In this document: positions 4,012 through 4,702 of the stretch, piece by piece
How positions within the stretch are numbered: position 1 is the first letter of the stretch
Layout: every line of letters starts with the position of its first letter
Assembly (NCBI GenBank): GCA_947451115.1
Contig: CANFXV010000003.1
Span: forward strand, 1-64,000
From: Bacteroidota bacterium
Lineage (GTDB): Bacteria > Bacteroidota > Bacteroidia > Chitinophagales > Chitinophagaceae
Direction of reading: 5' to 3'
Length of the DNA: 64,000 nucleotides
Notes under the pieces: model-generated
Told to the model about the DNA's origin: nothing
The model's database searches: none
What the model saw: the letters and a program-made list of their open reading frames with translations, nothing else
Program-made: the position numbers and the translations under genes

Positions 4012-4485
4012 ATGAGCAATTTAACTGGCCATCCAGCCCCAGCCTTCACGCTTTTTGATACAGATAAAAAAGCAACTAATTTAGCAGATTTTAAAGGTCA
4101 AAATGTAGTGGTTTTATTTTTCCCTTTGGCTTTTACAGGTGTATGTACTGCCGAGCTATGCAGCATTAGAGACAATATCGCTACTTACAATGCAGCCAAT
4201 GCACAAGTCTTAGGTATTTCAGTTGACTCTTTATTTACTTTGGGTAAATTCAAAGAGGAGCAAAAATTAAACTTTCCTTTATTGAGCGATTTTAATAAAA
4301 CTGCAATAGCAGCTTATGGTGTTAAATATGATGTATTTCCTGCCTTTGAAATGCAGGGGGTGAGCAAGCGTGCGGCCTTTGTGATTGATAAAGAAGGTGT
4401 GGTACAATACGAAGAAATTTGTGCAACGCCAGGTGACTTGCCTAATTTCGAAGCCATTCAAACTACTTTGAATAAATTGAACTGA
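4012..4485 (+). CDS. peroxiredoxin (AhpC/TSA family)
   Basis: GHPAPAFTLFDTDKK...VVVLFFPLAFTGVCTAELCSIRD with peroxidatic Cys motif. Confidence 0.92.
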   Translation: MSNLTGHPAPAFTLFDTDKKATNLADFKGQNVVVLFFPLAFTGVCTAELCSIRDNIATYNAANAQVLGISVDSLFTLGKFKEEQKLNFPLLSDFNKTAIAAYGVKYDVFPAFEMQGVSKRAAFVIDKEGVVQYEEICATPGDLPNFEAIQTTLNKLN

Positions 4486-4496
4486 AACGTCGCTTC

Positions 4497-4528
4497 GTGT
4501 TAATTTTTATAAAATATAAAATTAACAC
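4497..4528. repeat. hairpin A of tandem unit: GTGTTAATTTT-[TATAAAATAT]-AAAATTAACAC
   Basis: 11-bp perfect stem read directly. Confidence 0.8.
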
Positions 4529-4547
4529 TACGCTTTCTAATGATTTT

Positions 4548-4578
4548 AAAAATGCCCCCGAATTTCGGGGGCATTTTT
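4548..4578. terminator. bidirectional intrinsic terminator
   Basis: AAAAATGCCCCCG-AATTT-CGGGGGCATTTTT. Confidence 0.9.
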
Positions 4579-4589
4579 GGTAATCGTTA

Positions 4590-4611
4590 GGGCTTTATAA
4601 AATATAAGCCC
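4590..4611. repeat. hairpin B of tandem unit: GGGCTT-[TATAAAATAT]-AAGCCC
   Basis: 6-bp perfect stem; 10-nt loop identical to hairpin A. Confidence 0.8.
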
Positions 4612-4638
4612 AAACAACTATGACCTCTAATGATTTTT

Positions 4639-4669
4639 AAAAAGGGTTCCAATAAAATGGAACCCTTTT
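4639..4669. terminator. bidirectional intrinsic terminator
   Basis: AAAAAGGGTTCC-AATAAAAT-GGAACCCTTTTT. Confidence 0.9.
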
Positions 4670-4679
4670 TGGTTCGTAT

Positions 4680-4702
4680 TAATTTTATAGAATATAAAAT
4701 TA
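4680..4702. repeat. hairpin C of tandem unit, overlapping the stop codon of the minus-strand CDS
   Basis: TAATTTT-[ATAGAATAT]-AAAATTA; loop one base different from A and B. Confidence 0.65.

Follow-up and report, generated by a model that had tools for sequence, protein, structure and literature searches.

A clade-specific 3'-UTR module in a group of freshwater Sediminibacterium, built from a stop-anchored hairpin, a conserved linker and an intrinsic terminator

The gap between two convergent genes, encoding a peroxiredoxin (prx) and an RlmI-like protein (rlmI), contains two copies and a fragment of a short ordered unit, and the question is what this unit does there and why its stems differ between copies and still pair. 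It lies within the window, that is, the whole stretch of 64,000 nucleotides that was analysed. The original prediction proposed tandem small RNAs each ending in its own terminator, a structured 3'-UTR element or a REP-like element. When we re-read the sequence at 4497-4702, all the letters on which that proposal was built were found in place (Table 1). The ORF upstream belongs to the peroxiredoxin/thiol peroxidase family in NCBIfam, at scores below the curated cut-offs and with an ortholog used for the assignment.

Table 1. Features of the prx/rlmI gap, in window coordinates.
Feature	Position	Strand	Basis
Peroxiredoxin stop codon (TGA), of the gene owning units A and B	4483..4485	+	ORF 4012-4485 (+)
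Unit A, hairpin I: 11-bp stem, 10-nt apical TATAAAATAT at 4508-4517	4497..4528	+	letters and model match
Unit A, conserved linker TTTCTAATGATTTTAAAAA	4534..4552 (core 4537-4552)	+	letters and linker consensus
Unit A, intrinsic terminator: GC-rich hairpin TGCCCCCGAATTTCGGGGGCA (4553-4573) and T5	4553..4578	+	letters, folding
Unit B, hairpin I: GTT(A)GGGCTT / AAGCCC(A)AAC, loop 4596-4605	4587..4614	+	letters and model match
Unit B, conserved linker CTCTAATGATTTTTAAAAA	4625..4643 (core 4627-4643)	+	letters, linker search
Unit B, terminator: hairpin GGGTTCCAATAAAATGGAACCC (4644-4665) and T5	4644..4670	+	letters, terminator scan
Third, truncated unit, hairpin I only: TAATTTTATA GAA TATAAAATTA	4680..4702	+	letters; relatives

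Units A and B have the same part order and different stems. The arms of unit A (4497-4507 and 4518-4528) form with their loop a palindrome of 32 nt, whereas the stem of unit B (4590-4595 and 4606-4611) is followed by 3 further pairs beyond an A.A mismatch. A covariance model built from 30 units matched unit A at 4499-4578 with 84.6 bits and unit B at 4587-4670 with 79.8 bits. The A-tract ahead of the terminator hairpin of unit A potentially allows bidirectional use, and the terminator of unit B, read on the minus strand, is located 34 nt past the rlmI stop. The third hairpin was expected to overlap the rlmI stop codon and it does include it (4700-4702, minus strand); its loop has the canonical orientation on the plus strand (TATAGAATAT), so that it reads as a truncated third unit entering the end of rlmI. 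At this site relatives have the same truncation or a full palindrome (L006 and L008).

Single words such as the apical one are not rare in the window, whose DNA is AT-rich; we found 26 matches with at most one mismatch and 25 were expected. The ordered combination of loop, linker and terminator is beyond chance. The region folds far better than its shuffles (z = -9.4 on the plus and -9.7 on the minus strand), both units score highly with the model and the combination recurs at many loci of relatives. When a pairing of the linker with another RNA was considered, 41 linker copies with at most one mismatch were found on both genome strands, versus 16 for the reversed control.

The general plan is a module of about 90 bases in which a stop-codon-anchored hairpin with a variable stem and the apical TATAAAATAT is followed by the linker CTCTWATGATTTTTAAAA and then by an intrinsic terminator. 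Often 2-3 such modules stand in tandem, spaced about 90 nt. Among 202 distinct units, 179 were on the sense strand after a stop codon (a few of these are weak reverse-strand echoes next to convergent genes) and 4 were not, which upholds the structured 3'-UTR element among the three options proposed. First units start 2-15 nt after the stop, second units near +95 and third units near +185, and the stem of the first unit often takes in bases of the stop codon (median -2 nt relative to its end). In a gene read as lysyl-tRNA synthetase the stem takes in the last codons as well: there ACA GAT TAA forms one side, the 5' arm, of a perfect hairpin of 14 bp (L075), hence the 3' arm has matched coding sequence.

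In 100 of 114 units the linker starts 17-19 nt after the loop end, and most positions of the linker consensus CTCTWATGATTTT were 88-99% conserved over 156 units. The second hairpin, both in the alignment and in the listed units, is a GC-rich stem directly followed by a T-run, which is the sequence pattern of an intrinsic terminator, and 97.6% of the cells of its helix were paired. The terminators of the units were found at a median of 62 nt from the stop (quartiles 59-67), whereas other, linker-free terminators at the same loci had a median of 34 nt, and in element-free congeners those plain rplT terminators whose distance was measurable were at 21-37 nt. Of the downstream neighbours, 46 were convergent and 22 co-directional, therefore the need for a bidirectional terminator does not explain the module. 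We did not find any inverted loop among the sense units; thus the loop looks strand-specific, which suggests selection on its sense-strand sequence. A pseudoknot between loop and linker (AAAAU with AUUUU) is possible, and covariation is uninformative on it because both sides are nearly invariant. We also considered the linker as a safety stop against read-through and rejected it, since its phase to the upstream stop was mixed (43/31/24) and earlier in-frame stops were usual.

The combination of loop and linker was looked for in the rest of the genome and in related Chitinophagaceae, as the original prediction had suggested, and it recurs at many loci. In the genome to which the window belongs, the covariance model gave about 20 matches at E < 0.01, with 6e-11 as the lowest value, and it matched 53 of 121 congeners at E <= 1e-5, the genus being Sediminibacterium and close Chitinophagaceae MAGs. 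Most of the genomes compared from within the genus had DNA matching the 321-bp region, predominantly at prx/rlmI and also at other loci. There was no match to the model in 103 other genera of the family, and in the sample of the order only congeners were matched; family and order together were covered by several hundred genomes. Exact-pattern matches outside Bacteroidota and in Hydrotalea reached 31 bits at most with the covariance model and were judged to be chance. The element is a clade-specific 3'-UTR module of Sediminibacterium.

In the rplT tree all the element-bearing rows were in one fully supported half of the genus and the other half had none at rplT; these labels were set by a strict pattern, and two rows labelled as lacking the element (L158 and L194) do have model matches. 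Every element-bearing genome is 2.6 Mb or smaller. Nevertheless, the element-free half at rplT includes some small genomes of 2.1-2.3 Mb (L255, L256 and L257, from G008, G019 and G051), so the presence of the element cannot be predicted from genome reduction alone. In congeners outside the clade a plain terminator follows rplT, and within the clade the rplT of G047, G054 and G028 has no unit. In G033 the rplT stop is followed by CCTCTTAAATGATATGAAAAAAA and then by the terminator, with no hairpin I (L243), which could be either a linker-like remnant or an intermediate form.

The hosts are mostly housekeeping genes. NCBIfam identified peroxiredoxin (at the family level), SucC, aconitase, PDH E2, L20, EF-P, EF-G, Rho, the B12-dependent ribonucleotide reductase (NrdJ) and biotin carboxylase (AccC), and from their C-termini we read EF-Ts, lysyl-tRNA synthetase, CarB, TypA and a sigma factor as probable further hosts. 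Judging from gene identity, they would usually be highly expressed.

The claim that structure was kept after duplication turned out to be strongly supported. Of the outcomes that the original prediction named as refuting it, none turned up among those open to a check. Over about 200 distinct units there were 711 double-sided compensatory cells versus 183 in shuffled alignments, 95.8% of the cells of both helices were paired versus 65.9% and the covariation score was 0.726 versus 0.169. The compensatory changes in helix I and in the terminator were far above both shuffled and slid controls, as in a structured RNA, although these alignments had been fitted to the structure, and significance is overstated by tests that use no tree.

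Nevertheless, the strand bias expected of RNA, in which G-U is tolerated above A-C, was not seen in hairpin I, where we counted 12 G-U and 12 A-C among 1157 cells (38 and 31 in a second count). By minimum-energy folding, G-U made up 1.7% of the pairs in hairpin I, 4.7% in the terminators of the element and 9.3% in plain rplT terminators, a difference that composition explains in part because hairpin I is richer in A-U. The plain rplT terminators replaced tRNA acceptor stems as the comparison set, since there were only 7 tRNAs and in the wrong register. Units differing at one pair were separated by a double Watson-Crick swap in 19 cases and by a G-U step in none, these pairs of units not being independent. 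DNA template switching has been proposed as a source of double compensatory changes without G-U intermediates (PMC8794818). Strong covariation nearly free of G-U thus suggests template switching from arm to arm, and the covariation may be in part mutational and not all due to selection.

The sense orientation (179:4), the anchoring to the stop codon and the terminal intrinsic terminator point to a lineage-specific cis-acting module of the transcript end, a function to which we would give about an even chance. A housekeeping mRNA would pass from the stop codon directly into hairpin I, with its two arms of about 18 nt and its fixed A/U apical segment, then into a conserved and usually unpaired linker of about 13 nt and finally into the terminator with its A- and U-tracts. 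The most likely role would be to terminate heavily translated mRNAs cleanly and strongly, with the terminator insulated from the trailing ribosome, and to protect their 3' ends. In E. coli, the trailing ribosome represses a terminator placed a few bp past the stop almost completely, and terminator activity returns as the distance grows (PMC4824070). Hairpin I and the linker might likewise set the terminator about 62 nt past the stop, beyond the reach of the ribosome trailing RNA polymerase, while the released 3' end would retain two hairpins against exonucleases and tandem copies would act as back-up terminators. The units presumably spread and multiply through duplication, and the perfect stems are probably maintained partly by template switching between arms.

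Some observations weigh against parts of this cis-acting reading. Plain spacing needs no conserved loop or linker sequence, a few tens of nt are enough to lift the repression in E. coli, so that 62 nt is above the strict need, and plain terminators at shorter distances serve the same gene, rplT, in sister species. Furthermore, selection on RNA alone would not leave G-U as rare as it is in hairpin I. The conservation of loop and linker exceeds the needs of spacing and suggests a bound factor, the conserved letters implying an additional sequence-specific contact with a candidate RNA-binding protein, RNase or polymerase factor. A less probable extension of this is a clade-wide 3'-end code for housekeeping mRNAs, in which a dedicated putative factor would recognise, between stop and terminator, both the UAUAAAAUAU apex and the linker CUCUWAUGAUUUU. 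It would thereby link the completion of translation to the release of the transcript or the protection of its 3' end, and the stems would be continually rewritten by template switching with the pairing kept.

The same conserved letters could be explained by a post-transcriptional regulon, where loop and linker would be the putative site of one RNA-binding protein or RNase controlling stability or translation and the termination would be incidental. Conserved loop and linker beside two drifting stems are the usual signature of a hairpin recognised via its loop and flanking sequence. The hosts from central metabolism and translation form a coherent set that recurs across species, and no sense unit has its loop inverted. 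However, single loci in the clade are without the unit (the three rplT genes named above), and we consider the regulon unlikely.

A selfish or neutral interspersed repeat, non-autonomous and copying itself into 3' ends that tolerate strong palindromes and terminators, with stems perfect by mutation alone, seems equally improbable to us. The module is multi-copy and clade-restricted, its tandem arrays change in order (B-A-B-C in G050 versus A-B-C in G000) and its double substitutions lack G-U intermediates, as template switching would give (PMC8794818). Nevertheless, the distance to the stop codon is fixed, the sense bias is strong and many species carry the unit at the same host genes. Template switching also predicts inverted loops (PMC8794818), which are not observed in sense units, and the genome carries no RAYT/Y1 transposase, as PF01797 had 0 matches in this 89%-complete genome and was found in the control genomes.

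Small RNAs cut from the 3'-UTR and acting in trans as terminator-bearing sRNAs of about 80 nt would fit in size and shape (a structured body with a terminator) and with the tandem copies, but they seem very improbable. First units so close to the stop leave no room for an own promoter outside the coding sequence, so that stand-alone tandem sRNA genes are not supported either, and no Rfam sRNA family matched except for one marginal GcvB score on AT-rich hairpins.

That score, obtained when ten host loci were scanned, was 42.9 bits versus a gathering cut-off of 42 on three tandem units (L005:1402-1581). We rejected it as a match of AT-rich hairpins to an enterobacterial family; it is most likely false, and automatic annotation could spread the error. 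At a relaxed Rfam threshold nothing in the window came near any cut-off and there were only sub-threshold chance matches. The element is thus no known Rfam family.

Compared with known systems, the module contains an ordinary terminator. Like tandem or bidirectional intrinsic terminators with an A-tract, its second hairpin is GC-rich, has A4-A5 before it and T4-T6 after it, and is located at gene ends, where convergent sites can serve both genes. It differs from them by the stop-anchored hairpin with fixed apical letters and the fixed linker ahead, and by the longer distance to the stop. This addition of hairpin and linker was not found described in the open-access literature, where there was also no description of the element in Sediminibacterium or Bacteroidota. 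Hairpins read by a protein through a constant loop on a free stem, for example iron-responsive elements, are alike in having a variable paired stem, conserved apical letters and a UTR location, and aconitase is one of the hosts of the module. The loop of iron-responsive elements is CAGUGN. The apex UAUAAAAUAU is not that loop, and the hairpin of the module has a conserved linker and a terminator attached.

REP/BIME palindromes of the GTAG and CGTC families (PMC3733652) are also short, intergenic, downstream of genes and clustered, with alternative complementary stem letters. Our module differs from them in its strict sense orientation, fixed stop distance and own linker and terminator. Moreover, GTAG repeats often have G-T pairs (PMC3733652) whereas these stems rarely do, and no invariant GTAG/CGTC tetranucleotide was found beside hairpin I in 50 listed units or in the alignment. 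Lacking both the tag and the transposase, the element does not belong to the REP elements, one of the options in the original prediction. Hairpins made or maintained by template switching (PMC8794818) share the long perfect stems and the double compensatory changes without G-U intermediates; however, across the roughly 200 repeats of the module the loop is fixed and never inverted, and this suggests loop selection on top of a mutational process.

About 200 aligned copies at recurring orthologous genes, together with sister species that have a plain terminator at the same gene, are a natural experiment, which could show the role of the sequence between stop codon and terminator and how RNA hairpins drift yet keep perfect pairing. 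The module would also give a genus-wide marker of transcript ends in an uncultured freshwater lineage without annotated ones, and it bears on whether ribosomes trailing the polymerase constrain the design of 3'-UTRs outside E. coli.

Regarding the terminators of the window as a whole, a strict scan (stem of at least 6 bp, GC core and T-run) found an intrinsic terminator after only 4 of about 50 ORFs, one of them being unit B from the opposite side; therefore most transcripts must end by other means. Finally, many unit terminators share the loop CATAAAC in CCCC/GGGG stems, for instance GGCCCCCATAAACGGGGCC (L031, L033, L040, L072, L078, L079 and L087), and this is a second conserved-loop theme besides the CGA..TCG type.
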